The position numbers and the translations under genes were made by a program. From positions 67,828,115 to 67,892,114 of the forward strand of contig CP092876.1 of assembly GCA_030710605.1 (NCBI GenBank): 64,000 nucleotides of DNA, in the 5' to 3' direction. This stretch comes from Cordylochernes scorpioides. Its lineage: Eukaryota; Arthropoda; Arachnida; Pseudoscorpiones; Chernetidae. Below are positions 9,263-49,865 of the stretch, piece by piece (the stretch's first letter is position 1; every line of letters begins with the position of its first letter). Below the pieces are notes generated by a model. It was not told the DNA's origin, did not search any database, and worked only from the letters and a program-made list of their open reading frames with translations.

Positions 9263-9602
9263 TTCGAAATTCATGATGATCGTCCCTCGCCGTTTTATTT
9301 TCAAATCTAATTGCTTAATGGTAGAAGATAATATTTTATTTTTCCTTTTTAGTGCATTTAAATAAAAAAATTATATATATTTTTAAAAATTTATTGATTA
9401 TTTTAAAATTTTTATGTAATTTTTTAAAATTAATTATTTAAAATTATATAATCAATTTATATATTCAATGAGAGAAATATTCATGATATTGATGTTTGCA
9501 TGAAGTCATCATACACATCCCGAATATTCCTTTATCATTTGTGTGTGTGTGTTTTTTTTTTATAAAATATTAATATAAATTTAATTATTCTTTGGTATCA
9601 AA
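9263..9602. other. AT-rich upstream region of the zinc-finger gene
   Basis: Very AT-rich with a (TG)n tract at about 9539-9552 just before the start codon region. Partly conserved in front of the decayed paralogue near 30900-30960. No promoter element can be named with confidence. Confidence 0.35.
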
Positions 9603-16970: not shown

Positions 16971-17440
16971 TGGACGTACCCGGCTTCGCCCGGGTTTTAC
17001 CCGAGTAAAGGTTTGTCTAACGAATCTCTCAATAAAGTGAACATTTTTTCCTGGTCCCTTGAAAAATACTCGATAAGTTGAATAAAATCAATATTAATTG
17101 GTTCCCTCGGTAATTGGAAGTTAAAGGAATAGTATCTTGCCTTGGAATTGTATCATTATTCTTGTCTCAAATAAATTGCCGTGTCATCCTGAATTTTGTC
17201 TTTCCTAATTTTCTACATTACAAAATCATCGTATCATCATGATAATATTTAGAGCAGATTGTTGAAATATAACAGATAAATCAGAATATTTATCTTGATT
17301 ATTTTAAAGCGAAAAGTTATTTCAAAAATTTTATTTGCTAGAAACCTTCCCAGTACTATACTAAATAACTTCCCAAAGTTTCATGGCGTTCCAATGAGTG
17401 GTTTGGTCAGGCATAAAGGACAGACAGACACACACACACA
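16971..17440 (+). repeat. Interspersed short repeat with (CA)n tail, host of Tx1 insertion
   Basis: A longer copy of the same family of about 470 bp, ending TGGTTTGGTCAGGCATAAAG, GACAGACAGA and (CA)n. The (CA)n tail is the entry point of the Tx1-like LINE that follows. The ORF running from 17295 through this segment into ORF1 is read-through, not a real N-terminus. Confidence 0.65.
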
Positions 17441-19515
17441 CACACTCGGCCGTGCGGCACGCATTTGTCGAGCTCCGCCTTTTTCCCACCCTGGCGGGTG
17501 TATGGCTACCGGCGGTACGCCGAGTTTAGCACGGGCTGAAAGCCCATTAAAAGCTGATCAGATGCCTGGAAGGCACGGCTTGAAAGCACACCTCTGTGCA
17601 GAGAAATCTGCAATTTTCGATTCGCAGAGCAATTACTCTAATAATCAAGAAGCATTTGATAAACATGCAAATTTGCCCGCCGGCGGTAAAGATGTAAATC
17701 TGGCCGCGCCGTTCAACTTGGCGGCTAATCCATCTTCCAATGCCGTAGCCCAAGCTCAAAGAAACTGGGCAGACATGACAGAGGATATAAATCCTGAAAT
17801 TGAGGACAACTTTACTCTTGTCCAGAGAAGGAAGAGACGCCGCGGCTCGGCGAATTCGCCTACAGCGAATGCACCATCCTCCAATGTCGGAGGTTCTAGG
17901 ACCGATCGCCGACCGCGATCATCCACGGGATGGGCGCCGCGGGCGGAGGAGATTAGGACCACAAGGGCGCATATCGCGGAGGCCAGGGCGCAGCAGGCGT
18001 CCTCCTCTGAGGAGTACTGCGTGTATATCGAACGCAGCCCCGACCTAGAGCCCTTCCACTACCTAAGGGCACTGGACAGAATGGTCGGAGGAACCGGCGG
18101 AGTCGTCCAGGTTTCCAAGGTCAACGGACTCTACCTGCTGGGACTAACCAACAGAGGCCTGGTCGAGCGCCTCATAAGCGAGGGCCTCGAGGTTGAGGGC
18201 ACACTCCTGAAAGCATTCCCTTTCCGCAAAAGAGCGGAGAGGATAACAGTTGGAAACCTGCCCTTTTTCGTGGCGGACTCTGTCATCATCAACGCCCTCT
18301 CGACATTTGGGCGTGTTACATCCATCGCGCCCAAACTGATGAAGGCTGGCCCTTACATCTACAATGATGGCCGCCGAGAGGCGTTCATTGCCCTCCACGA
18401 AGGAGTGACTATCGAAAGGCTTCCTACCCGCCTCGAGATCAAAATAAAAGGCGAGACCTGGCCCGCATACCTGACCTCTGGAATCAGGTGTTCCAGGTGC
18501 CACGGTCAAGGACACCGTAGGGCCATCTGCCCCCTGCTTGCAGGGCTGGCCAACAACACCAGAATGGCCCCACCAACCACTCCTGCCGGCGTCCCATCAC
18601 CGACCACCCCTGCACCGCCTCAGCGATCAGCAGCCCAGCCTCCTGCACCGGCATCCTCCGACCCAGCCTCGGAGACTCCCGGCGCTCCTCCTGAGGCCCG
18701 AGCTGTAACTACATCTACAGCACCTCGGCCATCTCCACCAGTGGCCCCGGCCGTACCTATGGAGAAGGCACCTTCTGCCCCTCCACCTGTGACCCCTGCT
18801 CCGTCCCTGCAGGCGCCTGAGGGTCCCGTGGGCCCTCGCCCGGCCAATTCACAACATCCAGAGCCGCCTCCCGCTCGGCCGGACTTCGTTGCCCCGCGTG
18901 GCCCTCTGCCCGCCCAGAAGACCCTCGGGCCTGCGGCCCCAACACCGGACGTGGAAATGTCCACCACTGAGGAGCCCTCTGCTCCCTCACCAGCCGCAGT
19001 TTCAACACCCCCACTGCCTGCGCCTCAGCCTGCTGGGCCGACACCATCTGCTCCCCACAAAGAGGATCCGACACCGGCTATGACACCTCCGTCCCCACCA
19101 CCTACCCCGATGGAGGAAGACCTGCCGCCGAACTCGGGTGATTGCATCGATAGAATTTTAACAGAGATCATCAGTTCCAAAATCGACGTTGGACCCTTGG
19201 TCGATGATGAAACCTCCTGGACCGACGCCATTGATGCCATCCTACATCCCCATTCTAGGGCGCCTTTCCTTGCGAGACTCTCGCCCATTTTGAAGAAAAA
19301 CTACGCTGTCTTTTTCGAGGCGGCCATCGAGCGCGATCGGGATTCCCATCCCAGGATCCTCAGCGGGTTGTCCGAGCTCAGGAGGGCCTTGGCTCCCAAG
19401 ACTAGATGTCACCGCGGCAAGCGCTAACCTAATGTATATACCCCTCTCTTCTCTCTTTCTCTTTGAGATGTAACATTGTCTAGAAGACAATAAACTATTT
19501 TCAATTGTCAATTGT
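17441..19515 (+). mobile_element. Tx1-like LINE, ORF1-only derivative
   Basis: It contains a short 5' UTR, a full ORF1 and the family 3' end (GATGTAACATTGTCTAGAAG, AATAAA, CAATTGTCACAC). ORF2 is wholly missing between ORF1 and the 3' end, unlike the neighbour at 19613-25350. It is flanked by (CA)n on both sides, consistent with targeted insertion into CA repeats. GC content is far above the surroundings. Confidence 0.75.
17502..19427 (+). CDS. Tx1-like LINE ORF1 protein, intact
   Basis: Starting at the ATG at 17502, this is 641 codons without interruption. A basic segment (RRKRRRGS) is followed by a conserved globular region (EYCVYIERSPDLEPFHYLR, later RITVGNLPFFVADSVI and FGRVTSIAP) typical of Tx1/L1-type ORF1 proteins. 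Then come one CCHC knuckle (CSRCHGQGHRRAIC), a long Pro/Ala-rich linker of about 200 residues and a helical acidic C-terminus. Such proteins bind the element RNA. The upstream extension to 17295 lies in the short repeat and is discounted. The neighbouring second copy aligns but is frameshifted. With no ORF2 beside it, this gene could act only in trans. Confidence 0.8.
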   Translation: MATGGTPSLARAESPLKADQMPGRHGLKAHLCAEKSAIFDSQSNYSNNQEAFDKHANLPAGGKDVNLAAPFNLAANPSSNAVAQAQRNWADMTEDINPEIEDNFTLVQRRKRRRGSANSPTANAPSSNVGGSRTDRRPRSSTGWAPRAEEIRTTRAHIAEARAQQASSSEEYCVYIERSPDLEPFHYLRALDRMVGGTGGVVQVSKVNGLYLLGLTNRGLVERLISEGLEVEGTLLKAFPFRKRAERITVGNLPFFVADSVIINALSTFGRVTSIAPKLMKAGPYIYNDGRREAFIALHEGVTIERLPTRLEIKIKGETWPAYLTSGIRCSRCHGQGHRRAICPLLAGLANNTRMAPPTTPAGVPSPTTPAPPQRSAAQPPAPASSDPASETPGAPPEARAVTTSTAPRPSPPVAPAVPMEKAPSAPPPVTPAPSLQAPEGPVGPRPANSQHPEPPPARPDFVAPRGPLPAQKTLGPAAPTPDVEMSTTEEPSAPSPAAVSTPPLPAPQPAGPTPSAPHKEDPTPAMTPPSPPPTPMEEDLPPNSGDCIDRILTEIISSKIDVGPLVDDETSWTDAIDAILHPHSRAPFLARLSPILKKNYAVFFEAAIERDRDSHPRILSGLSELRRALAPKTRCHRGKR

Positions 19516-19612
19516 CACACACACACACATACATTCATTTATATATATATAGATATCTTTTGAAAATATAATTTGGTGGTGGTTTGGTCAGGCATAAAGG
19601 ACACACACACAC
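19516..19612 (+). repeat. CA-rich junction and truncated short repeat
   Basis: The (CA)n after the first Tx1 is followed by CATTCATTTATATATATA and then the last 50 bp of the short repeat (GGTTTGGTCAGGCATAAAG, then CA repeats). The second Tx1 begins directly in this CA tail. The same order recurs at 25340-25400. Confidence 0.65.
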
Positions 19613-19671
19613 TCGAGCTAGCGGCCACGCTTTCGCGAGCTCCGCCGTTTTCGCCTCTGGCGTGTGTGCAA

Positions 19672-21330
19672 ATGTCTGTAGACAGGCCAAATTTGGTACC
19701 GGCAGAAAGCCCTCAATCCGCTGAACAAGTGCCTGAAAGGCCCAGCGTTGAATCTCAACCAGGTGAGAAAATATCACCGAAAAAAGGAATCGAAGAGAAT
19801 TCTTCTAAATAATTTTCTATGAAATTTCAAAAAGATGCAAATCCGCCGGCAGGAGAAATGCATGTAAATCTGGCCGCCGCGCGTGGTGACGTCACGGCGC
19901 CGCCGACTGCTGCTTCGACCAGCGATTTAACACCCAACCCGACCTCGCTCAATTGGGCCGACAGTAGATGGCGGAGGTGGACGCCAACGACGGCTACACC
20001 GTCGTGAAGAGCAAGAAAAGGCGCCGCACTTCAGCACCTGAACACGCCGCTAAGCAGCCAAGCAGGCCTGCTGAGAAGCGCAGCTCCCAGCAGCAGAAGC
20101 GGCCAACAGGGCCGAGGTCAATGCCGTCCCAGGAAATCAAGGCGACGCGCGCCAACATCGCCGACGCCAGGGCGAGGCAGGCCACTACCAACCACGAGAA
20201 CTACATCTTCGTGGAGCTGTGCCCTGACACCCCGGACTACTCCTACCTCCGGGCAATTGGCATGCTGGTCGGAGGGCCAGGGAGAATAAGCCAGTTCAAC
20301 AGGATGAACGGCCACTACGTCGTGGGCCTCGCGAGCAAGGACCTTGCGAGCCGTCTGGTGGAGGTGGGCCTGGACATCGAAGGAACTCACCTGAAGGTCT
20401 TCCCCTTCCGAAAGAAGGGCAGAACGCATCACCATCGCAAATCTGCCCGGCTTCGTCGAGGACAGCGCCATCGTGGAGCCCCTGCGCAACTTCGGCACCG
20501 TGACCTCGATCGCCCCCATCATGATCAAGATGGGGGAATAGACCTTCAACGACGGCCGCCGGGAGGCGTTCATCCTGCTCCGCGAGGGCGTGAGGCTGGA
20601 GTCGCTGCCCACCCGACTGACCATCAAGTCCAAGGGAGACACCCTGTCAGCCTTCCTCTCCTTTGGAATCAAGTGTTCCAAGTGCGGCAAGCAGGGCCAC
20701 CGCAGAGCCAACTGCCCAGCGCTCGCCAGGCAGAACAGCAGCCCCAGGCAAGCAGCGTCTCCCACCGACGCAAGCCCCCCCCCTCCTCCTCCTCCTCAGC
20801 AGCCAAGGAGGCCGACACCTGCGCCCGCAACACCGGCGTCCCCTGTCCAACCGGCGAAGACATCAACCGAGGCTCCGTCGACCCCCTCGGCGCCCCATCC
20901 TGCCGAACCGAAGGATCTTGCCCAGCCCGCCCCTGTCGCCCTCCCTGCTCCTATAGCTGCCCCGCGGCCCCTCGAGCCCGAGACCCTTCCGCTCGACATT
21001 GAGATGTCGGAGGAGGAGCTGACCTCAACTCCCTCCGCGTCTCCCCGGGGAATACCCGCACTCACCCAGCTGCTGAAGCACATCGAGGAGTCCCCCACCC
21101 TTTCCATCGACTGGGACAAGCTGCCCGGCCTAAACTGCAAGGACGCACAGAAGCTTTTCACCTCTAAAACCAGCATGGAGAAGCGAGCGCCCTTGCTGAC
21201 AGAAGCACAGGTCGCCGCCCTCGACGAGCTGGCCGAAACCACCAAGGCCTCGATTCCAAACTCCAACCACACCATCCGCAAGACCCTCCAGAAGACCAGG
21301 AAGGTGCTGCATGAAGGACAGCCCCAATGA
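19672..21330 (+). pseudogene. Tx1-like ORF1, frameshifted copy
   Basis: It aligns along its length with the intact ORF1 at 17502. The N-terminus (19672-19812) ends in a stop. The central domain reads from 19968 to about 20420 (ENYIFVELCPDTPDYSYLRA). After a frameshift near 20420 and a TAG at 20538-20540, the rest continues in another frame to 21330 with the knuckle CSKCGKQGHRRANC and a Pro-rich tail. The final TGA overlaps the ORF2 start (AATGA), the likely coupling site for reinitiation. Confidence 0.75.
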
Positions 21331-23351
21331 GTTACCGCCTCGCCACCATCAAAGCGTGAGGGCTCGCCATTCGGGGGAGGAGCCTTGCCCTTTGTCATCT
21401 CCTCAGGCAACATCACGTGGACATCGCGTTTGTCCAGGAGACAAACGCATTTCATCTGGGCAGCGGCCAAGACCTCTGCCTCAGCTACCACGCTGTTGTA
21501 TTGGCCCATCCCGTAGCCATCTCGGGATCCGGACTCGCCTGCGTCTTCGGGCCAGGCGTAGCCGTTCTACAACATCGCATCCTGTGGCCGGGCCACATCG
21601 CCTTGGCAACTATAGATGTCCACGGCGAGGAGATAACGGCCATCACCGTTCATCTGGCGCATGAACCCCGAGAGAGAAACCAACAACTGGTGCTCCTGGC
21701 GGCGACAGCGGCACAGGAGGAGGAGGGGGCCTGCAGGATCATCGGCGACTTCAACATCAGGGATCGGGGCCCCTCATCATCATCATTATTGGATGCCCTC
21801 GCCGCTCTACTAGACCTGGCCGCGCTGGTCGACGTGGCCACCCAGTTCGACGCCGCCCACCTGCCCACCAGAGTCGCCAGGCACGGCGACCAAGTCGAAT
21901 CCAGCCGCCTGGACCGGATCCTCGTCCCTGCTGGAGTCCTGGATCGCGTGTCCATCTACGCGACCAGCCACTACCACCTCTCGGCAACCGCCTCGTGCTG
22001 CTCCAGGTGGGCCCGCCCACCACCTCCGTCTCCTCCTCCACCCAGCCTCGCTTGGCCGCGATGCTCCGCTCGAGCCTTGCTCTCGAACATCTGGCTGGCT
22101 ACATCTGGGAGCTCGAGGAAGACACGGCGCACGATGACTACGACGGGATCCTATGGGACAGGTGGACCAACATCAAGGCGGGGCTGCTGGCGGAGGCCAG
22201 ATCCCTGCACGACCCGCGCCACGCTGCCAGCTACATCTACAGGGCAAGGCGCTTTACCGCGGCGCAGACGCGACTGCCCGTCGCTGCCGGACCTGGCACG
22301 CGCCATCCGCCTCCGTCGCCCGGTCAGCGTCATCAGGGACGAGGAGGACAACATCATCGAGGGCCCCGAGCTTCGGCGGAGGGCGTACGCGACCTTCCAG
22401 CCCCGCTTCGCCCGTCCCACCAGCGATCCAGCTGCGGGAGCTGCCTTCATCGCCAGCAGCGCGCTCACCACCACCCGCGAGCTGAGTGAGGAGGACCCGC
22501 TCCACCGGCCAGACATCAGTCCCAGCGAGATCGGTAACGCCATCGAGCACCTCCCTCGCGGAAAGGCCCCCGGCAGGGACGGCCTGCCGTGCGAACTCCT
22601 CGTCGCCTTCAACGAGGACTTCTTCGCGGAAGCTCTGGCCCGGGTGTTCGCGGCTTCACGGCTCCGCGGTGCCCTGCCTCCGTCGACGCGGCGCAGCTCC
22701 ATCTGCCTCGTGCCCAAGGCCCGCGGAGGTCGCGGCCTTGATGGCTACAGGCCTGTCGCGCTGCCCTCGGCCGACTACAGGGTCCTGGCCGCCATCCTTC
22801 ACCGGCGCCTCAAGCCCCACCTGCGGACCCTTGTGCCGGAATGCCAGACCTACGCCGTCCCCGGGAGGTCCCCGTCATTGAACATCGCCATGGTGATGGA
22901 CGCCGTCGAGGAGGCCACCGCCCTGGGCTCGCCGCTGGCCGTCATGGGCGTAGACCTGGAGTCCGCCTTTGACTCATTAGACCGCGGCTTCCTGGAGTCC
23001 CTGCTAACATCCCTCCACCTCCCGCCGGCCTTCAGGGCCTGGATCAATATCCTCTACGCCGGGGCGGACGCCACCATCCGGGCCGGAGGCTTCTACACCA
23101 CCACCTTCCCCCTCCTCAACGGCCTAAGGCAGGGTTGCGCCGTGAGCGCCGCACTTTTTAGCATCGCCACGGGGCCGCTGCTATGTCGCCTGGAGTTGAC
23201 CCTCGGCGTGGGCAACGTCACCGCCTACGCCGACGACCTCGTTCTCCTATTCCATCGCGACGAGGACTTCGAGCGGGTGGCGACCGTCTTCGAAGACTAT
23301 AAGCAGGCCTCCGGAGTTGGCGTGAACCTCCGGAAGAGCGCTGGCCTCTGG

Positions 23352-23451
23352 NNNNNNNNNNNNNNNNNNNNNNNNNNNNNNNNNNNNNNNNNNNNNNNNN
23401 NNNNNNNNNNNNNNNNNNNNNNNNNNNNNNNNNNNNNNNNNNNNNNNNNNN
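23352..23451. other. Assembly gap of 100 N
   Basis: Exactly 100 undetermined bases, the usual placeholder for a gap of unknown size. Confidence 0.99.
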
Positions 23452-23829
23452 TGCGGAATGCCAGACCTACGCCGTCCCCGGGAGGTCCCCGTCATTGAAC
23501 ATCGCCATGGTGACGGACGCCGTCGAGGAGGCCACCGCCCTGGGCTCGCCGCTGGCCGTCATGGGCGTAGACCTGGAGTCCGCCTTTGACTCGGGATCCG
23601 GACTCGCCTGCGTCTTCGGGCCAGGCGTAGCCGTTCTACAACATCGCATCCTGTGGCCGGGCCACATCGCCTTGGCAACTATAGATGTCCACGGCGAGGA
23701 GATAACGGCCATCACCGTTCATCTGGCGCATGAACCCCGAGAGAGAAACCAACAACTGGTGCTCCTGGCGGCGACAGCGGCACAGGAGGAGGAGGGGGCC
23801 TGCAGGATCATCGGCGACTTCAACATCTG
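23452..23829 (+). other. Misplaced duplicate pieces of the same LINE
   Basis: 23452-23590 repeats 22838-22973 (RT palm) and 23591-23826 repeats 21526-21758 (endonuclease), joined at CTTTGACTCGGGATCC. The normal RT sequence continues from about 23830 exactly where the left flank stops: left flank ends in CTCTGG, right side has ATCTGG then TGCGGC. Removing the gap and these pieces would reconnect the frame, so a repeat-driven misassembly is more likely than a biological rearrangement. Confidence 0.6.
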
Positions 23830-25255
23830 GTGCGGCGCCTGGCGCAACCGCGGCGACTCCCCTCTCGGCGCCTCCTGGTCGACCACCTCCATCAGGATCC
23901 TCGGGCTCGACATCGCCCCCAGGAGTACCGTCGCCCACCGGGAGCAGCATCTCCTGGCCCTCCTTGAGACTGCATGTCGCAAATGGACGCCCTTCACCCG
24001 CGGCCTCTCCCTCGTCGGACGAGCAAGAGCGGCGAACACGCTGGTGGGGTCCACGATCCAGCACCACCTGCATGGATACCTTCCATCACCCCCGACCATC
24101 GCCAAGCTGCAGGCCCGACTGGCGAGGTTCGTCTGGCTTCCTGCCGATGTCATGGCGAGGCCAGTTGCCATCGGAGGCCTCGGCCTTCTCGACCTCGCGA
24201 CCCAGCTCCAGCTCGCCTGCCTCAAAGGGGTGCAGGTCGCGCTCCGCGGGGGCAGAAATGCCTTCAGCTGTCTGGTCAACAGCGACGAGGCCTGGATCCA
24301 CCCTCCACCGGACGGCACCCGTCTCCAGCCCCGCTGTCTCCGACTGCTGAAACTGTGGGAGGAGGCCTCCAACATCCTGGGTCTCAACCACCGGGCGATC
24401 GCCACAGCTCAGCTGCTGGACCTCCCCATCATCGGCGGCTGCCGGTTTCTCCTGGCCCCCGCCCGCTGGCGCGGAGTCCGAGTCCGGGACCTCATCGTGG
24501 AGGAACACCTCATCGCCCGCCCTACGCGCTCGGCCCTGGCTGACGTCGCGGCCCTGGGCGCCTTCTGTCGGAGGCTGACCTCCGAGAACGCCGTGGGCTT
24601 CGGGGCAGAGTCTACGCCTTCATCTAGCTCCCTAGCTGCGGCCGTGGTGCTGAGGGGGACGGCTACGCCGTCTCTCACCGGCCTCACGACCCGCTCGGCC
24701 CGACGGGCCCTGGATCGCCCGCGCCTCGCCGCCACGCCCATCTCAAGGTTTACCTCGAGATGGTCGCCCACCATCGATCCACCACCATTCAGGATCGACT
24801 GGGCATCGCTGCAGCGCTGCGCCTTCTCGGGCCACGAGGCCGACGCGGCCCTCAAGTTGGCCGTCCACGCCCTGCCCCATCCGGCCCATCCTGCCTCGGT
24901 CGGCCCCTCCTGTCCTGCCTGCGGGTCCATCGACCGCTCCCTCGGTCACCGTTACTGGTGCTGCCCATCCATCAGGCCTCTCATCAGAGAGGCCTTCAAC
25001 ATCACAGGGCGGCCCTCTGACCTGCAAGCTTGGATCTTCGGCGGGTCTGGCCTTGAGGACGACGCCCTTTCCATCCTGGCGTCGGCAAAGTTGCGAATTT
25101 ATCGCTACTTTGTCCAGGTTGGGCTCGGAGAAGCAGTGGAGGACCCGCTCATCGCCTGGTCCGGGACCCTCCAGCGTCGAGGTCTCCTTCCATCGTCCCC
25201 CTTGTAAAATATTTGTAACATATGTGTAAATATTTAATTTCTTCATTTCCTTTCC

Positions 25256-25286
<31 letters not shown>

Positions 25287-25350
25287 GTTGATAAATTGAT
25301 GTAATATTGTCTAGAAGACAATAAATAATTTTTAATTGTCTAATTGTCAC

Positions 25351-25848
25351 ACACACACACATTCATTTTTATATATATACTAGCGTACGTACCCGGCTTC
25401 GCCCGGGTTTTACCCGAGTAAAGGTTTGTCTAACGAATCTCTCGATAAAGTGAACATTTTTTCCCGGTCCCTTGAAAAATACTCGATAATTTGAATAAAA
25501 TCAATATTAATTGGTTCCTTCGGTAATTGGAAGTTAAAGGAATAGTATCTCGCCTTGGAATTGTATCATTATTCTTGTCTAAAATAAATTGCTGTGTCAT
25601 CCTGAATTTTGTCTTTCCTAATTTTCTACATTACAAAATCATCGTATCATCATGATAATATTTAGAGCAGATTGTTGAATTATAACAGATAAATTAAAAT
25701 ATTTACCTTGATTATTTTTAGGCGAAAATTTATTTCAAACATTTTATTTGCTAGAAACCTTCCCAGAACTATACTAAATAACTTCCCAAAGTTTCATGGC
25801 GTTCCAATTAGTGGTTTGGTCAGGCATAAAGGACACACACACACATAG
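25351..25848 (+). repeat. Interspersed short repeat with (CA)n tail, unoccupied
   Basis: The body runs 25380-25848: a full copy of the family seen at 16971, beginning CTAGCGTACGTACCCGGC and ending GGCATAAAGGACACACAC. Here the tail continues into (TAGA)n with no LINE inside, giving the empty-site arrangement. Confidence 0.65.
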
Positions 25849-30939: not shown

Positions 30940-32770
30940 AGAAGAAAATTTCAAAATGATTAATTAAACTTTGGGTGAAAATAAACGAGGCAGACCAGAG
31001 AAGACAGACCCTGGATGCATCGACTTTATAGAGATCAAAACCTAGGAAAACAAATATTTTAGATGTAAAATTTGCAAATACACTACTTCTCATAAACCTA
31101 ATGTTACAAGGAAAATTAGAACTACTCGTAAAAATTTGAAAGAGTATAAGCGCGCCTTATGTCTTAAAAATAATTTGGACCAAGCAGAACCTTGAACCCC
31201 ACATGAAGAGCCACACAAATGTGAGAGACCTTCCGTACCCACATTGCGACTATGCATCCATAACTAAACAAAACCTAGACACGCATATTGAAAGACAACA
31301 TCGAAATCCCTCCAAACCTAAGCCATCAGTTTCATCACCATCTAAGTAGCCTAATTCTTTGAACTTTCTTAAAAACAAGTTCACGATCATTACGATTTTT
31401 CAAAGGCGGATCTGTAATTTGTGCAGTAAGTTGAAGGCTAGTGAGAATATCTCTCAAAATTACAAATTAGGTTCCGTTCTTGACGCCAGAAACCCCGAAA
31501 AACAGTCACTAGAGAGAATTGATGATACGAATTTCATCTAAAAATTATATACAAAAAAACTTTCAAGCTTCTCCTTCTGAATCTAGATCCAATGAAAAAT
31601 GCAGACTCGTCTGAAATTTTATGATTGAAAATAAGAATATCTTTCTCAACATCAACTAGGTGAGGTATCAGGATAATATTTTGAGCCTAAACAGTTCTTT
31701 ACCCAGTTGAATTTAAAGGCCTATTAGTTTCAAATATCAAATATTGTTAGAGGGCAGGCAGTAATTTCAAGCGATAATTTAGTAAAAGTTTCAGATACAT
31801 CAAACCCAAAGATTAAAAAAAAAAAACCCAAAGAAATAATATTATTTTGGGTACTCCCACTTTCTATCATGGAATATTTTCGACAGCAACTGCAATTTAA
31901 TCAAGAGAAACAAGTTTTACATGAAACCTTTGTCTCTCGAATAAATTCATTACAAATGTAAAAAATCCCTTGTTTTGATACGTTAATAGAGTCCAGGCAA
32001 TGCACTTATAAAACGCTACAACAAGTTACCCCAAAAATTTTATAGGATAGCTTCAAATACTAACTTTCAAATAAACGAAGAAGCCAATCAAAATGAATTT
32101 CACAACCTTCTACAGATGCAGCCATACAAAATGTCAACAACAGCACAAAACAATGGTTTCAAAGAAAATGAAGCAGCCAATCATAATGATTATCACAACC
32201 TTCTACAGATGCAGCCAATCAAAATGATTATCACAACCTTCTACAGATGCAGCCATTCAAAATGTCAACAACTGCACAAAACAATGGTTTCCAAGAAAAT
32301 GAAGCAGTCAATCAAAATGATTATCACAACCTTCTACAGATGTAGCCATACAAAATGTCAACAACCACACAAAACAATGGTTTCCAAGAAAATGAAGCAG
32401 CCAATCATAATGATTATCACAACCTTTTACAGATGCAGCTATCCCAAATGTCAATAACCGCACAAAACAATGGTTTCCAAGAAAATGCAGCCATTCCAAG
32501 TGTAAACAACTTTACAAAACAATGGTGTAAATCAAAATGAAGATGTCAATATTATTTCTTAGAATCTATGCCATGTAAGCACAACCCAACAATCGAGAGT
32601 AGTGAAATTACGGTTTAGAACAAATGAACAATATACAAAAATTAAATTCCAAAGGATGACGCAAACTGAAACAAATTCTACTAAAGGCATTTGGTTACCG
32701 AATCATTATTTAAAAATTGAATAAAGAAACAAATACAAATAGGAAAATTATTGCTGTTGCTTCAATTTAA
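30940..32770 (+). pseudogene. Decayed paralogue of the zinc-finger repeat gene
   Basis: It aligns with 9590-11790 from the start (GAAAATAAACGAGG) through the finger region, the middle and the tandem repeats (about 32060-32500) to the C-terminus and 3' UTR. Numerous frameshifts and stops are present; only one finger is readable and the 93-bp repeats are fewer (about four, irregular). Short ORFs at 31359-31541, 32116-32457 and 32355-32540 are pieces of it. Conservation of both flanks shows a segmental or element-borne duplication rather than a retrocopy. Confidence 0.8.
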
Positions 32771-36710: not shown

Positions 36711-37070
36711 GTTTCATGATTTTTCAGGATGCCTTAATGACCAAATTCTTTGGTCGTTGAGGTACAGCTTGCACCACGCTGATGAGGGCCAACAGCCCGA
36801 AACGCGTCCGTGGTTAGCTTTTCTTGATTAATCAAGAATGGGTATTTGGCCAATTCTGGAATAATTAAAAATCAACGAGAATAGTTGATATTTATTCCGA
36901 TAGATGGCGCAAGCCATCAGCAACTTTCAGTTGCACGATAAGGAGATGCCTTTTTCTTAATTTATGCACCTTATCCCAGTACAATATTACATTTGTACTA
37001 TTTTTTCACATTGTGTAGCGTTCTCACGCAATTCTGGCCTTAACTACCCTTTTCATGATTATACCAATAA
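36711..37070 (+). repeat. Single 350-bp-type hammerhead unit upstream of the gag array
   Basis: Diverged copy of the unit at 91-1027: the order TTTTTCAGGA, CCAAATTCTTTGG hairpin, hammerhead, TTTTCTTGATTAATCAAGA, GATGGCGC and GTTCTCACGCAA matches. It ends at CATGATT, then an 18-bp bridge leads to the first gag-only unit at 37093. Confidence 0.7.
36774..36813 (+). ncRNA. Type I hammerhead ribozyme, canonical core
   Basis: CCACG (36774-36778) pairs with CGTGG (36809-36813); CTGATGA is at 36779-36785; stem II GGGC (36786-36789) pairs with GCCC (36795-36798) around CAACA; GAAA at 36799-36802; cleavage triplet GTC ends at 36808. Compared with the copies at 437 and 787, stem II changes from GCGC/GCGC to GGGC/GCCC with pairing retained, which supports selection on the structure. 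Confidence 0.88.
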
Positions 37071-37092
37071 GATTATACCAATCACTAATAAT

Positions 37093-38638
37093 GAGTGTCT
37101 TTCCCATACTTACCATACTTACCTAACCTGACCTATACTTACCTGACCTGGCCATACTTACCACTTACCATACTTATCCCTGCCATGGCTCCCTCTAGGA
37201 AGAAGAAGAAGAATGCCGAGGAGCCCCTCGTAACCCTCGCCCTATTAGAGTTGGAGAATAGCCAGTTTATGGAGGACGTCGAGATTGCATTACGCTATCC
37301 TCACCCTACCTCCCAAGAATACCTGTGCCAAATCATTACGAATATCACCAGTTCACGGACCGAGCAGATCCAGGCCCTCATTGCCGAGGTAGAGAACCTC
37401 TCTGGCACCCTCGCGTCCTTTAAGGAACTGGACGAAATCATTCCACAGACTGCCTGCCAAAACACTCAAACCAGCCCTGCTCCTTCCTGCAAGGAAACCA
37501 GCTCCCAGACTGACCCCACCAAGCCTGCCACTCTTCTCCTCCTGACAAGCCTGCCTCCACCCTGCCTGCTCCTGTTGCAACCAAGAGGAAACAGCCTGAG
37601 GCTCTCAACCCGCCCGCAAAAAGACCCAACCTAAAAGGTCCAACCAAACTTGCGTCATCCCGCGTATCCAAGCCTGCGGCCGCCCAAGTGGTCCTCCATG
37701 GGGAAAAATCGGCGGCCCACACAGTGGCCGTCTCTGACGACCCACAGGCTGACCCAAGGGACATTTACAAGGCTGTCCGCGCTGTCCACACCCTACCCCA
37801 AGGTGTTTGGGCCTCTCTGCGCACCAAGGAGAAGCTGGTCCTCCACTCCAGCAATCCCGACATCATCCCTGAGGTGACTACCTCCCTGGCCAGCAAGCTA
37901 ACGAAAATGAAGGTCCGCCAGCAGAAGGAGATCCTGCCAAGAATCTGCCTCTTCAGAGTGGATGAGGAGACCTCCAATTCCACAATCGAGGAGACCTTCC
38001 TGGCAACCGCCGCTGTCAGCCAGCTCCCCGGGAACAAAGTGGTGCGCGTGGCGCACCGTTCTGCACTCAGAAACGGGACCTGCACCGCCTTCATCGAGGT
38101 GGACCTCAAGACCTTTGGAGCCCTGGGCAACCGCGGAAGAATCGTGGTTGACGGTGTGATCCTCAACTTCGAGGCGTCCATCCGCGCCCGCGTCTGCTTC
38201 CGCTGCTGTGGCTTCGGCCACAACTCCTCCCACTGTTCCAGAGCTCCCAAGTGCTTCCACTGCGGTGAAGACGGCCATGAAGGCCGCTCCTGCCCAACCA
38301 GAGCTGATCAGCACACCTCAAAATGTGCCAACTGCTGCCAAAAGGGCCTCTCAGGCAACCACGAGGCGAGAGCCTCAAACTGCCCCATTCTGAAGTCTAA
38401 GGCCCACACGTTTTAGGCTTCAAAAACCCTCCGCCTCCAACTCCTCCCGCCACCTTCTACTGGTTACTGGACCCCTGCCTCACTTCTCCCAGGCGCTGTT
38501 CCCCTGCTTTCTCAACGTTTCCACTTCCCTGCGAGTCTTCTCCTGCCGCTACATACTCCTATTCCTTGCCTCCTCACATCGCGCATGGGCTCAAAAATCA
38601 TTACTTTTGGTTAGTAGCCCGTTAAACCACATATAAAC
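37093..38638 (+). mobile_element. Gag-only LINE-like unit 1 of a head-to-tail array
   Basis: It starts at GAGTGTCTTTCC and runs to the next GAGTGTCTTTCC at 38639 (1546 bp). It holds one gag-like ORF and a 3' UTR that ends with a hairpin (GGGCT...AGCCC) and CCACATATAAAC. The 5' leader is a run of CATACTTACC-like repeats. No RT or endonuclease is present in this or the next two units. Confidence 0.7.
37185..38416 (+). pseudogene. Gag-like ORF1 protein, unit 1 (one frameshift)
   Basis: From MAPSRKKKK at 37185 the frame holds to about 37530, where an indel relative to unit 2 shifts it; the rest continues from about 37640 in the second frame to 38416. It otherwise matches unit 2 closely, including all three zinc knuckles (CFRCCGFGHNSSHC, CFHCGEDGHEGRSC, CANC...H...C). 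Loss of frame in one copy of a young array suggests it is not under strong selection or contains a sequencing error. Confidence 0.7.
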
Positions 38639-40193
38639 GAGTGTCTTTCCATACTCATACTTACCTTTTATACTTACCTGGCATCGGTGTCACGGAGCTC
38701 AAGATTCCCGTGCCCTCAGGAAATACTTACCTTACTTACCACAAAGTCATACTTACCTCCTCACCTGCTCCTGCCATGGCTCCCTCTAGGAAGAAGAAGA
38801 AGAATGCCGAGGAGCCCCTCGTAACCCTCGCCCTATTAGAGGTGGAGAATAGCCAGTTTATGGAGGACGTCGAGATGGCACTACGCTATCCTCACCCTAC
38901 CTTCCAAGAATGCCTGTCCGAAATCATTACGAATATCACCAGTTTACGGACCGAGCAGATCAAGGCCCTCATTGCCGAGGTAGAGAACCTCTCTGGCACC
39001 CTCGCGTCCTTTAAGGAACTGGACGAAATCATGCCACAGACTGCCTGCCAAAGCTCCCAGACTGACCCCACCAAGCCTGCCACTCCTTCTCCTGCTGACA
39101 AGCCTGCCTCCACCCTGCCTGCTCCTGTTGCAACCAAGAGGAAGCAGCCTGACGCTCTCAACCCGCCCGCAAAAAGACCCAACCTAAAAGGTCCAACCAA
39201 ACTTGCGTCATCCCGCGTATCCAAGCCTGCGGCCGCCCAAGTGGTCCTCCATGGGGAAAAATCGGCGGCCCACACAGTGGTCGTCTCTGACGACCCACAG
39301 GCTGACCCCAGGGACATTTACAAGGCTGTCCGCGCTGCCCACACCCTACCCCAAGGTGTTTGGGCCTCTCTGCGCACCAAGGGGAAGCTGGTCCTCCATT
39401 CCAGCAATCCAGACATCATCCCTGAGGTGACTACCTCCCGGGCCAGCAAGCTAACGGGAATGAAGGTCCGCCAGCAGAAGGAGATCCTGCCAAGAATCTG
39501 CCTCTTCAGAGTGGATGAGGAGACCTCCAATTCCACAATCGAGGAGACCTTCCTGGCAACCGCCGCTGTCAGCCAGCTCCCCGGGAACAAAGTGGTGCGC
39601 GTGGCGCACCGTTCTGCACTCAGAAACGGGACCTGCACCGCCTTCATCGAGGTGGACCTCAAGACCTTTGGAGCCCTGGGCAACCGCGGAAGAATCGTGG
39701 TTGACGGTGTGATCCTCAACTTCGAGGCGTCCATCCGCGCCCGCGTCTGCTTCCGCTGTTGTGGCTTCGGCCACAACTCCACCCACTGTTCCAGAGCTCT
39801 CAAGTGCTTCCACTGCGGTAAAGACGGCCATGAAGGCCGCTCCTGCCCAACCAGAGCTGACCAGCACACTTCAAAATGTGCCAACTGCTGCCAAAAAGGC
39901 CTCTCAGACAACCACGAGGCGAGAGCCTCAAACTGCCCCATCCTGAAGTCTAAGGCCCGCACGTTTTAGGCTTCAAAAAACCCTCCGCCTCCAACTTCTC
40001 CAGCCACCTTCTACTGGTTACTGGACCCCTGCCTCACTTCTCCCAGGCGCTGTTCCCCTGCTTTCCCAACGTTTCCACTTCCCTGCGAGTCTTCTCCTGC
40101 CGCTACATCCTCCTATTCCTTGCCTCCTCACATCGCGCATGGGCTCAAAAATCATTACTTTTGGTTAGTAGCCCGTTAAACCACATATAAACG
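38639..40193 (+). mobile_element. Gag-only LINE-like unit 2
   Basis: 1555 bp from GAGTGTCTTTCC to the next one. Its 3' part (39970-40193) is almost identical to that of unit 1. Its leader differs by an insertion with CATCGGTGTCACGGAGC. Confidence 0.7.
38776..39969 (+). CDS. Gag-like ORF1 protein, unit 2, intact
   Basis: 397 codons from MAPSRKKKK. The Lys-rich start could be a nuclear signal. A helical, acidic N-terminal region (to about residue 90) is followed by a Pro/Ser/Thr-rich linker, then a conserved globular region with ILPRICLFRVDEETSNSTIE and VVRVAHRSALRNGTC, then three CCHC-type knuckles (CFRCCGFGHNSTHC, CFHCGKDGHEGRSC, and CANC...NHEARASNC). This order is that of ORF1 in I/R1/Jockey-type LINEs. 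No ORF2 follows: about 220 bp later the next unit begins. The ATG at 38776 is shared by all three units; the open frame upstream is leader. RNA packaging is the likely function, with RT supplied in trans. Confidence 0.75.
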   Translation: MAPSRKKKKNAEEPLVTLALLEVENSQFMEDVEMALRYPHPTFQECLSEIITNITSLRTEQIKALIAEVENLSGTLASFKELDEIMPQTACQSSQTDPTKPATPSPADKPASTLPAPVATKRKQPDALNPPAKRPNLKGPTKLASSRVSKPAAAQVVLHGEKSAAHTVVVSDDPQADPRDIYKAVRAAHTLPQGVWASLRTKGKLVLHSSNPDIIPEVTTSRASKLTGMKVRQQKEILPRICLFRVDEETSNSTIEETFLATAAVSQLPGNKVVRVAHRSALRNGTCTAFIEVDLKTFGALGNRGRIVVDGVILNFEASIRARVCFRCCGFGHNSTHCSRALKCFHCGKDGHEGRSCPTRADQHTSKCANCCQKGLSDNHEARASNCPILKSKARTF

Positions 40194-41722
40194 GAGTGTC
40201 TTTCCACAGTTCTCTTCTTTTTTTTTTTCGTTCCCGGTTGGTTTTCATATCGCAGTTAGCTCTCTACCTGGACACATCGTTGCTCTCTAGCTCTTGCTCC
40301 TGCCATGGCTCCCTCTAGGAAGAAGAAGAAGGAGGCCGAGAATGCCGAAAAGCCCATCATAACCCTCGCCCAACTGGAGATGGAGAATGAAAAGGCGAAG
40401 TACGAACTCCATCAAACAATACATATGCTTCACCCTCACACCCAACAAAACCTTCACCAATTCATAACGAGTTTCGTCAATTTACGGACTGAGCAGATCA
40501 AGGCCCTCATTGCCGAGGTAGAGAACCTCTCTGGCACCCTCGAGTCCTTCAAGGAACTGGACGAAATCAAGCCACCTACAGCCTGCCACAGCACTCAAAC
40601 CAGCCCTTCTCCCTCCTGCAAGGAAACCAGCTCCCAGACTGACCCAACCAAGCCCGCCACTCCTGCTCCTACCAAAAGGAAGCAGACCGAGGCTTCAAAT
40701 CCTCCCGCAAAGAGGACCAACCTCAGAGGTCCCGCAAAACCTGCGCCTTCCCGCCCCACCAAGCCTGCGGCCGCCCAAGTGGTCCTCCATGGGGAAAAAT
40801 CGGCGGCCCACGCAGTGGTCATAGCTGATGACCCACAGGCCGACCCAAGAGCAATGCTCAAAGCTGTCCGCGCTGCCCACACTCTACCACAAGGCGTTTG
40901 GGCCTCCCTGCAAACCAAAGGGAAGCTTGTCCTCCACTCCAGCAACCCAGATACCATCCCAGCTGTTACCACCTCTTTGCCAACAAGCTGGAAGGCATGA
41001 AGGTCCGCCAACAGAAGGTGATCCTGCCTCGCATCTGCCTCTTCAAAGTGGATGAGGAAACATCCAACTCCACCATTGAAGAGACGCTGCTGGCAACCCC
41101 TGCTGTCAGCCAACTCCCTGGGGACAAGGTGGTGCGCGTGGCGCATCGTTCTGCACCCAGAAACGGAACATGCACCGCCTTCATCGAGGTGGACCTCACA
41201 ACCTTCAGAGCTCTGGGCATCCGCGGAAGGATCGTGGTGGATGGAGTGATCCTCAACTTCGAGGAATCCATCCGCGCACGAGTCTGCTTCCGCTGTTGTG
41301 GCTTCGGCCACAACTCTGCCCAATGCACCAGAGATCCCAAGTGCTTCCACTGCGGTGAAGGCGGCCATGAAGGCCGTACCTGCCCCTCCGCTGCCGACCG
41401 TCGCACCTCCAAGTGCGCCAATTGCTGTGCCAAGGACCTCTCAGACAAGCACGAGGCGAGAGCCTCTAGCTGCCCCACCTTGAAGCTTAGAGCCCTCAAG
41501 TTCTAGGCTTCCAGGACCTCCTGCCGCCTCAACTGGCCTTCATCCCGGCTTCTCACCCATCAAGGCGTTGTTTCCCTGACCTCTCCAGCTTCCTCCCCCC
41601 CTGCGATGACTCCTCCACTGCCAGATCCTAGGATCCCTTGCCACCAGCTCGCGTTCTGCAGCCATAGTAGGGCTAGAAGACCCTTTTTTGTAGGCCAATT
41701 AGCCCGGATTCTCAACTAACTC
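40194..41722 (+). mobile_element. Gag-only LINE-like unit 3
   Basis: 1529 bp. More diverged than units 1 and 2 in both leader and 3' UTR, yet it begins with the same junction and keeps a GGGCT/AGCCC 3' hairpin near 41662-41706. Confidence 0.7.
40305..41506 (+). pseudogene. Gag-like ORF1 protein, unit 3 (one frameshift)
   Basis: MAPSRKKKKEAE at 40305 reads to about 40980, where a one-base indel shifts the frame; the remainder ends at 41506 with CFRCCGFGHNSAQC, CFHCGEGGHEGRTC and CANC...H...C. Compared with unit 2 it has an N-terminal insertion (KKEAENAEKP) and a shorter linker. Divergence includes many synonymous-type changes, so it spent time under constraint as a separate copy before decay. 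Confidence 0.7.
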
Positions 41723-42110
41723 GAGTGTCTTTCCTGGAGGTAGCCATTCAACAAAGATTGAATTAATTAAGAAGAAGACAAACTAGTTTTTAGTTAACAA
41801 TAGTATTATTTTATGGGATATAGCAGCACTTGGAAGTTTTTTACTGTTTTTAAACGATAGAATATTGTGCTAGTGAAAATTATTTAATATTACACCAATC
41901 ACTAATAATCAATGTCTTTCCTGGAGGTAGCCATTCAACAAAGATTGAATTAGTTTGGAACACAAGCTAGTTTTTAGTTAACAATAGTATTCTTTTATGA
42001 GGGATGGTCATACATGGATTTTTTTTACTGTTTTCAAACGATAGAATTTTGTGCTAGTGAAAATTATCTGAGATTATACAAAGCACTAACACACCACACA
42101 GAACACACAA
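41723..42110 (+). repeat. Two short units ending the gag array
   Basis: A segment of about 182 bp starting GAGTGTCTTTCCTGGAGG (41723) recurs at about 41905 with AATGTCTTTCCTGGAGG. Both contain CATTCAACAAAGATTGAATTA and GTTAACAATAGTATT, and end CACCAATCACTAATAAT or similar, the same sequence that precedes unit 1 (37076-37092). A last GAGTGTATTTTTATT occurs at 42113. These are probably the 3' ends of severely 5'-truncated members of the array. Confidence 0.6.
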
Positions 42111-47290: not shown

Positions 47291-47299
47291 AATCATATA

Positions 47300-49790
47300 C
47301 TATAGTTGTAATTTGAGAGCTATACTTGTTGATGATCCTCTACTATATTTGACATTTAAGAGCTATACTTGTTGATGATCCTATACTATAGTTGGCATTT
47401 GAGAGCTACAATTGGTGATGATCCTCTACTATAGTTGACATTTGAGAGCTATACTTGTTGATGATCCTCTATAATAGTTAGCATTTGAGAGCTATACTTG
47501 TTGATGATCCTCTACACTATAGTTGACATTTGAGAGCTATACTTGTTGATGATCCTCTACTATAGTTGACATTTGAGAGCTATACTTGTTGATGATCCTC
47601 TATAATAGTTAGCATTTGAGAGCTATACCTGTTGATGATCCTCTACTATAGTTGACATTTGAGAGCTATACTTGTTGATGATCTTCTACTATAGTTGACA
47701 TTTGAGAGCTATACTTGTAGATGATTTTCCTACTATAGTTGACATTTGAGAGCTATACCTGTTGATGATCCTCTACTATAGTTGACATTTGAGAGCTATA
47801 CTTGTTGATGATTCTATACTATAGTTGACATTTGAGAGCTATACTTGTTGATGATCCTCTACTATCATTTGACATTTGAGATATATACTTGTTGATGATT
47901 CTTTACTATAGTTGACATTTGAGAGCTATACTTGTTGATGTTCCTCTACTATAGTTGACATTTGAGAGATATACTTGTTGATGATGCTCTACTATAGTTG
48001 ACATTTGAGAGCTATACTTGTTGATGATCCTCTACACTATAGTTGACATTTGAGAGCTATACTTGTTGATGATCCTCTACTATAGTTGACATTTGAGAGT
48101 TATACTTGTTGATGATCCTCTACTATAGTTGACATTGGAGAGCTCTACTTGTTGATGATCCTATACTATAGTTGACATTTGAGAGCTATACTTGATGATC
48201 CTCTACTATAGTTAACATTTGAGAGCTATACTTGATTATCCTCTACTATAGTTGGCATTTGAGAGCTCTACTTGTTGATGATCCTCTACTATAGTTGACA
48301 TATGAGAGCTATACTTGTTGATGATCCTCTACTATAGTTGACATTTGAGAGCTATACTTGTTGACGATCCTATACTATAGTTAGCATTTGAGAGCTCTAC
48401 TTGTTGATGATCCTCTACTATAGTTGACATTTGAGAGATATACTTGTTGATGATCCTCTACTATAGTTGACATTTGAGAGATATACTTGTTGATGATCCT
48501 CTACTATAGTTGACATTTGAGAGATATACTTGTTGATGATCCTCTACTATAGTTGACATTGGAGAGCTATACTTGTTGATTATCCTCTACTATAGTTGAC
48601 ATTTGAGAAATATACTTGTTGATGATCTTCTACTATAGTTGATATTTGAGAGATATACTTGTTGATGATCCTCGACTATAGTTGACATTTGAGAGTTACA
48701 CTTGTTGATGATCCTATACTATAGTTGGCATTTGAGAGCTCTACTTGTTGATGATCCTCTACTATAGTTTACATTTGAGAGATATACTTGTTGATGATCC
48801 TCTACTATAGTTGACATTTGAGAGATATACTTGTTGCTGATCTTCTACTATAGTTGACATTTGAGAGCTCTACTTGTTGATGATCCTATACTATAGTTGA
48901 CATTTGAGAGATATACTTGTTGATGATCCTCGACTATAGTTGACATTTGAGAGCTACACTTGTTGATGATCCTATACTATAGTTGACATTTGAGAGCTCT
49001 ACTTGTTGATGATCCTCTACTCTAGTTTACATTTGAGAGATGTACTTGTTGATGATCCTCTACTATAGTTGACATTTGAGAGCTCTACTTGTTGATGATC
49101 CTCTACTATAGTTGACATTTGAGAGCTATACTTGTTGATGATCCTCTACTATAGTTGACATTTGAGAGCTATACTTGTTGATCATCCTCTACTATAGTTG
49201 ACATTTGAGAGATATACTTGTTGATGATCCTCTACTATAGTTGACATTTGAGATATACTTGTTGATGATCCTCTACTATAGTTGACATTTGAGAGATATA
49301 CTTGTTGATGATCCTCTACTATAGTTGACATTTGAGAGCTCTACTTGTTGATGATCCTCTACTATAGTTGACATTTGAGAGCTACACTTGTTGATGATCC
49401 TACACTATAGTTGACATTTGAGAGCTACACTTGTTGATGATCCTATACTATAGTTGACATTTGAAAGCTATACTTGTTGTTGATCCTCTACTATAGTTGA
49501 CATTTGAGAGCTCTCCTTGTTGATGATCCTCTACTATAGTTGACATTCGAGAGATATACTTGTTGATGATCCTCTACTATAGTTGACATTTGAGAGATAT
49601 ACTTGTTGATGATCCTCTACTATAGTTGACATTTGAGAGCTCTACTTGTTGATGATCCTCTACTATAGTTGACATTTGAGAGCTACACTTGTTGATGATC
49701 CTCTACTATAGTTGACATTTGAGAGATATACTTGTTGATGATCCACTACTCTAGTTGATATTTGAGAGCTACGCTTTTTGATAATGATCT
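47300..49790. repeat. Minisatellite, 43-bp unit, about 57 copies
   Basis: Continuous tandem repeats of CTACTATAGTTGACATTTGA followed by GAGCTATACTTGTTGATGATCCT or variants (GAGATATA, GAGCTCTA). Units vary by substitutions and small indels, with interleaved variant types that mark older block duplications. There are no unique spacers. It lies in the interval between two candidate exons (44659 and 49866). Confidence 0.95.
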
Positions 49791-49865
49791 ATTTAAGTAA
49801 TATTTGATAACTATATCTGTTGGTGATCCTACACTATAGATAACTTGATGTTATGTTGCGGCAGG

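Follow-up and report, generated by a model that had tools for sequence, protein, structure and literature searches.

Three gag-only units lie head to tail, at 37093-38638, 38639-40193 and 40194-41722, in the 64,000-nt stretch of Cordylochernes scorpioides DNA analyzed here (the window). The units measure 1546, 1555 and 1529 bp, and each opens with the 12-mer GAGTGTCTTTCC (at 37093, 38639 and 40194), as the original prediction had it; a fourth copy, at 41723, starts the right flank. With one mismatch or fewer allowed, the window holds 4 matches to this 12-mer, versus 0.18 expected in shuffles. The prediction was also right that the units encode a knuckle ORF1-like protein and lack ORF2: all three encode a CCHC-knuckle gag, and ORF2 is absent from each. 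The features of the locus are as follows.

36763..36828, + strand: hammerhead-ribozyme-like repeat, uninterrupted (Rfam RF02275: 26.5 bits and E 0.0021, short of the gathering score, 52)
37059..37092, + strand: left remnant of the ~184-bp target repeat (37068-37104 versus repeat junction 41885-41921, 89%)
37093..37104, + strand: target-site duplication GAGTGTCTTTCC, copy 1
37105..37184, + strand: unit 1 leader, four U1 snRNA 5'-end pieces (ATACTTACC at 37106, 37115, 37135 and 37154) plus a proximal core common to other copies
37185..38416, + strand: unit 1 gag, one frameshift near 37535
38417..38638, + strand: unit 1 3' UTR with 3' stem-loop tail
38639..38650, + strand: target-site duplication, copy 2, unit 1/unit 2 junction
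38651..38775, + strand: unit 2 leader, U1 pieces including an exact U1 nt 1-52 at 38670-38721 (relative to the U1 gene of the same genome)
38776..39969, + strand: unit 2 gag, intact, 397 aa, CCHC knuckles C-terminal
39970..40193, + strand: unit 2 3' UTR with 3' stem-loop tail
40194..40205, + strand: target-site duplication, copy 3, unit 2/unit 3 junction
40206..40304, + strand: unit 3 leader, without the U1 9-mer
40305..41506, + strand: unit 3 gag, diverged subfamily, one frameshift near 40986 (dS 0.47 to unit 2)
41507..41722, + strand: unit 3 3' UTR, without the stem-loop tail (compared with locus L061)
41723..41734, + strand: target-site duplication, copy 4, at the start of the right flank
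41735..42098, + strand: two copies of the ~184-bp target repeat

The sole uninterrupted gag is that of unit 2 (from the ATG at 38776); the gag genes of units 1 and 3 carry one 1-bp frameshift apiece. Units 1 and 2 are 97.3% identical in the CDS and 98.2% in the 3' UTR. Unit 3 is only 82% (CDS) and 60% (3' UTR) identical to the others, and it lacks the 3' stem-loop present in most family members. Alignment of the three 5' UTRs is rich in gaps and reaches just 47-60%. Searches of Pfam and PDB with gag returned only weak zinc-knuckle matches, and no relatives were found in a viral contig collection.

Two further short units had been proposed. These segments (41726-41905 and 41913-42089, the second repeat copy beginning CAATGTCTTTCC) are instead a ~184-bp tandem repeat, 84% alike and without gag. 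The repeats look like the insertion target, because the left flank of the array matches their junction at 89%. The 12-mer is the target-site duplication of this locus and no family signature: GAGTGTCTTTCC occurs 97 times genome-wide, versus 233 for its reversed control, which rules it out as the shared junction of the family. Many family copies sit between duplications, of 10-18 bp, inside other repeats; the commonest target among the copies read is the hammerhead-ribozyme-like repeat, of which the window has an uninterrupted example. For 23 of 40 leaders, by raw count, the 3' flank and the sequence that immediately precedes the leader match over at least 10 nt. One additional leader (L020) has such a match, but there the match is the repeat itself; no duplication was found for 8 of the 40, and another 8 have no tail in range.

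A gag search of the 2.6-Gb host genome gave at least 138 matches, which come from the 104 candidates scored out of 16,245 at first look. Scored copies are dispersed over 22 of 24 contigs. Head-to-tail stacks occur at four loci (the window, C11 [L026/L030], L056 and L063). Downstream of 46 of the 50 gag 3' ends read lies a conserved 3' tail, at a distance of 231-428 nt; its fold z scores are -1.9 and -2.5, and it is a putative recognition site for RT. No ORF2 or RT-motif frame follows any of these 50 ends in the stretch read, which covers part of the family. The genome contains 118 exact tails. Among 20 read that lack a scored gag, 8 have gag sequence and 12 are truncated, and none is joined to an ORF2. 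Another pattern located 80 tails outside the usual gag context, a minority of them read. Hence neither a copy with ORF2 and the same 3' end nor a family made up mostly of full LINEs, the outcome that would have spoken against the prediction, was seen in the part read. Candidates for full LINEs were rejected as well: five diverged gag copies at 75-78% identity and two at 83-84% have no ORF2 in the ~2 kb read after each, and a LINE ORF2 C-terminus near a family tail in L052 seems, on visual inspection, to stop in a TAAA-rich tail of its own ahead of the family tail. One of the gag copies, L063, has another gag unit as its next element downstream.

These copies have traits of non-LTR elements made by target-primed reverse transcription, namely target-site duplications and frequent 5' truncation (several truncated copies have duplications, as judged by eye). 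The mark of an autonomous element, an ORF2 with endonuclease and RT, is absent from the sequence read downstream of the 50 gag genes. We infer that the family is an ORF1-only (gag-only), non-autonomous LINE, perhaps R1-like, with RT and endonuclease acting in trans. In the prediction, RT in trans is a feature of HeT-A; for the present family, no autonomous RT-bearing partner was found among the tails and gag copies read, and for that reason the RT, endonuclease and clade of the family are unproven.

What sets the family apart is its leaders, the sequences between the duplication and the gag ATG; their snRNA content was unexpected and is not part of the prediction. The 9-mer ATACTTACC comprises the first nine bases of host U1 snRNA, and 36 of 40 distinct leaders contain one to nine copies of it, always in sense. 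Among U1 matches of 9 nt or more in these leaders, 148 of 150 begin at U1 nt 1, with end points at nt 9 (104), nt 10 (40), nt 11 (2), 29 and 52; none is antisense. Most leaders are thus concatenated 5'-terminal pieces of host U1, mostly nt 1-9 or 1-10. Genome-wide, (ATACTTACC)x2 occurs 107 times, versus once for the reversed control. Some leaders also contain, in sense, the 5' ends of U5 (1-10 to 1-12), U4 and U3. Reference sequences were the U1, U4, U5 and U3 genes read from the same genome; the numbering of U5 and U3 follows the point where the leader copies begin, which puts position 1 at 1 nt (U5) or 2 nt (U3) ahead of the Rfam model start. Two U1 genes were read, of which the one on C6 is a variant with a start other than ATACTTACC. 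Weaker matches comprise single ones to U1 37-45 (9 nt) and to U5 22-30, two to another type of U5 gene, both starting at its nt 5, one antisense 9-nt match to U4, and five to U3, one of them long and four, of 9 nt, probably due to chance.

The U1 9-mer is missing from 4 of the 40 leaders, including that of window unit 3, and, in the bases read, from three leaders (two at L056, one at L063) that belong to another gag subfamily, ATGAATCCTGCC. It is also missing from all 14 5'-truncated copies, across as much as 1.4 kb ahead of the tail. With distance from the ATG, the exact share among U1-like 9-mers runs 0.49, 0.78, 0.83, 0.89 and 0.78 per 30-nt step (the last with 9 cases). Copies with the same core have at most 61 nt of leader in common, in the part of the family sampled. 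In L011 and L014, the proximal 57 nt of leader, U5 and U1 pieces included, are the same, and the two diverge farther out. The outermost piece in L012 is U1 25-38, without the 5' end, as from an unfinished jump.

The reading we consider probable combines an ORF1-only LINE family using RT in trans, serial template jumping onto small RNAs, and repeated insertion in the window. Insertion would proceed by target-primed reverse transcription, a trans-acting LINE providing RT and endonuclease. Once at the 5' end of the gag RNA, and ahead of second-strand synthesis, RT would jump, in many cases repeatedly, to the 5' portions of nuclear small RNAs, and the next copy would inherit part of each leader. 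The snRNA pieces do lie in sense, 5' of the element and inside the duplications, the arrangement that marks LINE/snRNA template-switch chimeras. Nontemplated base addition and template jumping are described for R2 RT, with in vitro jumps assayed to acceptor 3' ends (PMC8857657). U1 nt 9, however, is internal, and the proposed jumps would need either initiation within the RNA or a short fragment of U1. A more specific version is possible but rather doubtful. Here, a dedicated mechanism would have RT take 9-12-nt capped 5' fragments of spliceosomal RNAs as end-to-end acceptors; the U1 beads would be partly inherited and used, for instance by mimicking U1 in the sense RNA or by offering perfect 5' splice sites (GGTAAGTAT) in antisense. 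Each leader would be a private record of one retrotransposition event.

The pieces might instead be joined at the RNA level, before reverse transcription, with either a cap-snatching polymerase or an RNA ligase adding one capped U1/U5 5' fragment of 9-12 nt per generation. In line with this, pieces begin at the 5' end of the small RNA and are commonest at lengths of 9-12 nt, and influenza leaders, about 10-13 nt long, are reported to map precisely to snRNA 5' ends, with U1 and U2 most abundant (PMC4446424). But pieces of 23-52 nt exist, and the outermost U1 25-38 piece has no 5' end, so the fit extends to most pieces and not to all. Moreover, one addition per generation predicts longer common leaders in sister copies than the 61 nt or less observed. 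We regard this route as unlikely. DNA slippage from a single ancestral U1 piece to (ATACTTACC)n would account for the 38 adjacent 9-mer pairs that have no filler and keep a perfect period of 9. Yet perfect runs reach at most three copies, fillers vary, and 10 of the 40 leaders contain U5, U4, U3 or long U1 pieces. The 9-mer is also rare off leaders (5 of 165 in loci L001-L065, and none in 59,370 window bases outside the units). Slippage is very improbable as the sole origin, although it may be an added source of 9-mer copies and could lie behind part of their repetition.

For the array itself, a single inserted unit could have been multiplied by segmental duplication or unequal crossing-over, in keeping with the 97-98% identity of units 1 and 2 beyond their leaders. 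That such a route exists is indicated by C11, where array units 2 and 3 have an identical leader, as duplication would give. In the window, however, the leaders are three different mosaics (unless they were rewritten after duplication), and unit 3 belongs to another subfamily, with dS 0.47; duplication is quite improbable here. The leaders differ on bodies that are 82-97% alike, which argues for independent insertions and upholds the prediction of repeated insertion at one site. The companion parallel with HeT-A at telomeres fared poorly. Being gag-only and head to tail would suit a telomere-maintenance element, but contig ends are not favored (3 of 91 copies in the outer 5%, versus 4.6 expected), positions are more central than uniform (KS p 7e-5), and many copies lie between duplications inside other repeats. 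A HeT-A-like role is barely credible. Under repeated insertion, three events would have occurred at one site; one would have split a 184-bp target repeat, and the later ones would have entered the duplication beside an earlier unit, in the manner of R1. Such reinsertion would account for the arrays found at the four loci.

HAL1 half-LINEs and HeT-A are likewise ORF1/gag-only and need RT in trans, but HeT-A is telomeric and HAL1 is derived from L1; we know of no snRNA leaders in either. In SINEs with snRNA-derived heads, the head is common to a SINE family. They resemble the present elements in that a retrotransposon begins with the 5' part of an snRNA, but here the leaders are private and multi-piece, and the element codes for gag. 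U1/2 snRNA in SINEs is mentioned in PMC13174262. LINE/snRNA chimeras, including double jumps in Magnaporthe, also carry sense snRNA or snoRNA at the 5' side of a LINE-type insertion, and are ascribed in these accounts to template switching or RNA ligation (PMC4476161, PMC13174262, PMC2104539). Those described are mostly single pieces and mostly U6, whereas here one copy has up to nine U1 5' ends. Chimeras of U1-U6 with L1 are on record (PMC13174262); PMC4476161 describes U1/L1 chimeras as extremely rare, with none ascribed there to template switching, and its chimeric U5 and U3 pieces are 3'-truncated. Unlike in these published cases, the U1 ends here lie in the leader of a gag-coding family, are partly inherited, and are absent from the truncated copies read. 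For tandem R1 in Drosophila rDNA, the explanation given in PMC2718515 is that new copies enter the duplication left by an earlier one; as in the window array, copies are head to tail with a target duplication between them (14 bp in R1). But R1 is autonomous and resides in 28S genes, whereas the present family is gag-only, targets other repeats and has snRNA pieces in most leaders.

The LINE/snRNA chimeras known so far are sporadic; in this protein-coding family, most of the full-length copies read have multiple U1 5' ends. Natural insertions therefore preserve many records (148 U1 pieces in 40 leaders) of the step that follows the arrival of RT at the RNA 5' end. A single genome would allow tests of template jumping, of acceptor choice and of how LINE 5' UTRs arise, and the leaders, like barcodes, tell tandem arrays built by independent insertion from those built by duplication.

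The array at 37093–41722 consists of three gag-only non-LTR units of 1546, 1555 and 1529 bp (units 1, 2 and 3), arranged head to tail. As originally noted, all three open with a common 12-mer, GAGTGTCTTTCC, a fourth copy of which starts the right flank (4 matches versus 0.18 expected). The gag of unit 2 is intact (397 aa, ATG at 38776), and those of units 1 and 3 carry one frameshift apiece; comparisons with Pfam and PDB gave weak zinc-knuckle matches only. Units 2 and 3 differ with a dS of 0.47 and a dN/dS of 0.30, indicating that the family evolved as protein-coding sequence. For units 1 and 2, dN/dS is 0.70, on 32 changes. What had been taken for two further, short units, right of the array, are copies of a ~184-bp repeat; they match each other at 84% and contain no gag. 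The left flank matches the junction of the two copies (89% over 37 bp), which argues that the array interrupts this repeat and that GAGTGTCTTTCC acts as a target-site duplication. The 3′ UTR of unit 3 (41507–41722), inserted at the same site as the others, lacks the conserved stem-loop tail of the family.

We searched the 2.62-Gb host assembly (24 contigs) with the gag protein. The search gave 138 matches, from 104 scored among 16,245 first-look candidates, on 22 of the 24 contigs. Genome-wide, there are 118 exact copies of the family's terminal 29 bases at the 3′ side, versus 0 for the control. The 12-mer GAGTGTCTTTCC had been proposed as a family junction, yet with 97 occurrences, versus 233 for its reversed control, it is not enriched. 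In the window and the fetched host loci, 46 of 50 gag 3′ ends are followed by the conserved tail at 231–428 nt; the exceptions are window unit 3, L059, L056 (an array edge) and L014, whose tail is one base off the motif used. The stem-loop fold of the tail has z-scores of –1.9 and –2.5. In the stretch read after these 50 ends, no frame with RT motifs was found, so the alternative that most copies are full LINEs with ORF2 found no counterpart there. Clustering at scaffold ends, by analogy with telomeric HeT-A, was not supported either: 3 of 91 places lie in the outer 5% of a contig, versus 4.6 expected (18 contigs of known length), and the 91 places sit closer to contig centres than uniform placement would give (KS p = 7e-5). 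Neighbours <6 kb apart form three groups among them.

The window holds other elements as well.
17398–25386, a second gag-only unit (ORF 17280–19427), then a full LINE head to tail, which we take to be Tx1-like
19968–21330, gag of the full LINE
21360–25207, ORF2 of the full LINE, with RT and endonuclease domains (N gap at 23352–23451)
2223–2651, 7195–7893 and 61763–63595, ORFs, presumably Penelope-like
9585–11783, 732-aa ORF, zinc-finger-like by eye, with nine 93-bp tandem repeats inside; related repeats at 32082–32491
47298–49839, 43-bp minisatellite, ~59 copies
The 3′ ends of this second gag-only unit and the adjoining LINE are 85% alike over 114 nt, with weaker 5′ similarity, and both are situated at (AC)n following a 196-bp repeat.

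To define targets, 63 tail ends were read, two of them re-reads (L009 repeats the window). Among them, L023, L024 and L035, with one common leader and alike flanks, are probably copies of one locus. One position in a repeat with a hammerhead-ribozyme-like motif adjoins 33 of these ends and is the commonest target among the gag-only copies read. Another 7 adjoin a second repeat (CCGATGGCC or a variant of it); the window array accounts for 4, and 19 lie elsewhere. The hammerhead match, at 26.5 bits, is below the Rfam gathering score of 52.
36763–36828, hammerhead-ribozyme-like repeat, uninterrupted, just left of the window array; Rfam match below gathering score
90–1028, second hammerhead-ribozyme-like repeat, by eye
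Target duplications were sought around 40 leaders, the leader being the sequence between the duplication and the gag ATG. For 23, the 3′ flank matches the bases immediately preceding the leader over 10–18 nt; 8 showed no such match, for 8 no tail lay in range, and at L020 a 28-nt match is the repeat itself. Duplications were also seen by eye around several 5′-truncated copies, some of them consisting of just ~52 bp of tail. The ~52-bp tail alone is inserted at L039, L043, L044, L048, L050 and L054, with duplications by eye and recurrent 5′ ends at TGGGCTC; such insertions are possibly a minimal SINE-like form.

Upstream of the gag start motif ATGGCTCCCT, 43 leaders were found; dropping 3 duplicates left 40 distinct ones, which we compared with the 5′ ends of the host's own U1, U4, U5 and U3. 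Position 1 is the Rfam model start for U1 and U4, where pieces also start, and was set 1 and 2 nt before it for U5 and U3, where their pieces begin. The leaders contain 150 exact U1 matches of at least 9 nt, 148 of which start at U1 nt 1 and end at nt 9 (104), nt 10 (40), nt 11 (2), nt 29 (1) or nt 52 (1); the leader of window unit 2 carries U1 nt 1–52 at 38670–38721. The other two are U1 25–38 (L012) and a 9-nt match at 37–45. No antisense U1 match of at least 9 nt was found in the 40 leaders. Pieces number 0–9 per leader, with at least one in 36 of 40, and in 200 mononucleotide shuffles the 40 leaders together contained, on average, 1.3 9-mers from anywhere in U1, and at most 8. Genome-wide, the doubled U1 9-mer occurs 107 times, versus once for the reversed control. 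Among these, 100 listed places group into 58 clusters. A scored gag follows directly after 40 of them, in 6 the tail is at the right distance, and 12 were left unassigned by this test; 5 of the 12 fall within units read separately, which leaves 7 unassigned.

Pieces of other small RNAs are present too. U5 gave 10 matches, 9 of them from the first base to nt 10–12; U4 nt 1–23 is present in L014, and 31 nt of U3 in L021. Less clear are a second U5 type (two matches from nt 5), a single antisense U4 match of 9 nt, and four more 9-nt U3 matches, probably due to chance. In a second gag subfamily (ATGAATCCTGCC; L056, L063), the three leaders seen show no U1 9-mer in the bases covered. The U1 gene at contig C6 (second read) is a variant lacking ATACTTACC. 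A cluster of U1 and U5 genes, mostly alternating and ~1.1–1.2 kb apart, lies at C12:64504341–64523829 of the host genome (G000). At L012 144–425 (minus strand), close to a gag copy, there is a match to a tRNA and, below gathering score, one to a U2-like snRNA.

Serial template jumping by a trans-acting LINE RT onto snRNA 5′ parts, together with array reinsertion, probably explains these data best, though the leaders of the second subfamily and the weak small-RNA matches make us slightly less confident. The pieces would be added at the end of cDNA synthesis, as several observations suggest. They lie inside the target duplications, and the U1 9-mer is absent from all 14 5′-truncated copies. The exact share of U1-like 9-mers per 30-nt step from the ATG is 0.49, 0.78, 0.83, 0.89 and 0.78 (the last on 9 cases); ATG-proximal pieces thus seem older, although a mutated piece in a shared core enters the first steps anew with every copy. 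Copies with the same core are mostly unlike beyond it, yet L011 and L014 agree over 57 nt of leader that contain pieces of U5 and U1, and L028 agrees with L049 over 61 nt. Hence, the leader is partly inherited, and the remainder looks new.

Precedents exist for such jumping. In vitro, the R2 RT extends its product with nontemplated bases and moves from one template to another (PMC8857657). Double jumps are found in LINE chimeras of Magnaporthe, as is a switch site at GCC|A/U (PMC2104539). In the leaders of this family, most pieces terminate in CC or GC, perhaps through a comparable preference. Against jumping, U1 nt 9 is internal, such that one has to assume either initiation inside U1 or a short fragment of it, and no RT associated with the family was found; internal initiation on U5 was inferred for L1 chimeras (PMC4476161). 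Cap-snatching as the source of the pieces is improbable: it does not explain the outermost piece of L012, U1 25–38, which lacks the U1 5′ end. With template jumping, an unfinished jump would account for this piece.

Gag-only elements, tandem arrays and chimeras of LINEs with snRNAs are all known kinds, each by itself. L1 chimeras with U1–U6 have been reported, according to PMC13174262, and no U1/L1 template-switch chimeras were seen in the set of PMC4476161. Multi-piece U1 leaders were not described in the literature searched, which covered few subscription papers. Further arrays occur at L056 and L063. The three window units have three different leaders and so are most simply read, from sequence, as separate insertions, supporting the original preference for repeated insertion at one site over segmental duplication. 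At the C11 array (L026/L030), two units carry an identical leader, showing that duplication does occur there. Tandem R1 arrays of Drosophila are similar, in that a new copy is proposed to enter the duplication of an earlier one (PMC2718515), and such insertion fits the array here. In this family, leaders serve as barcodes that tell insertion from duplication among array units.
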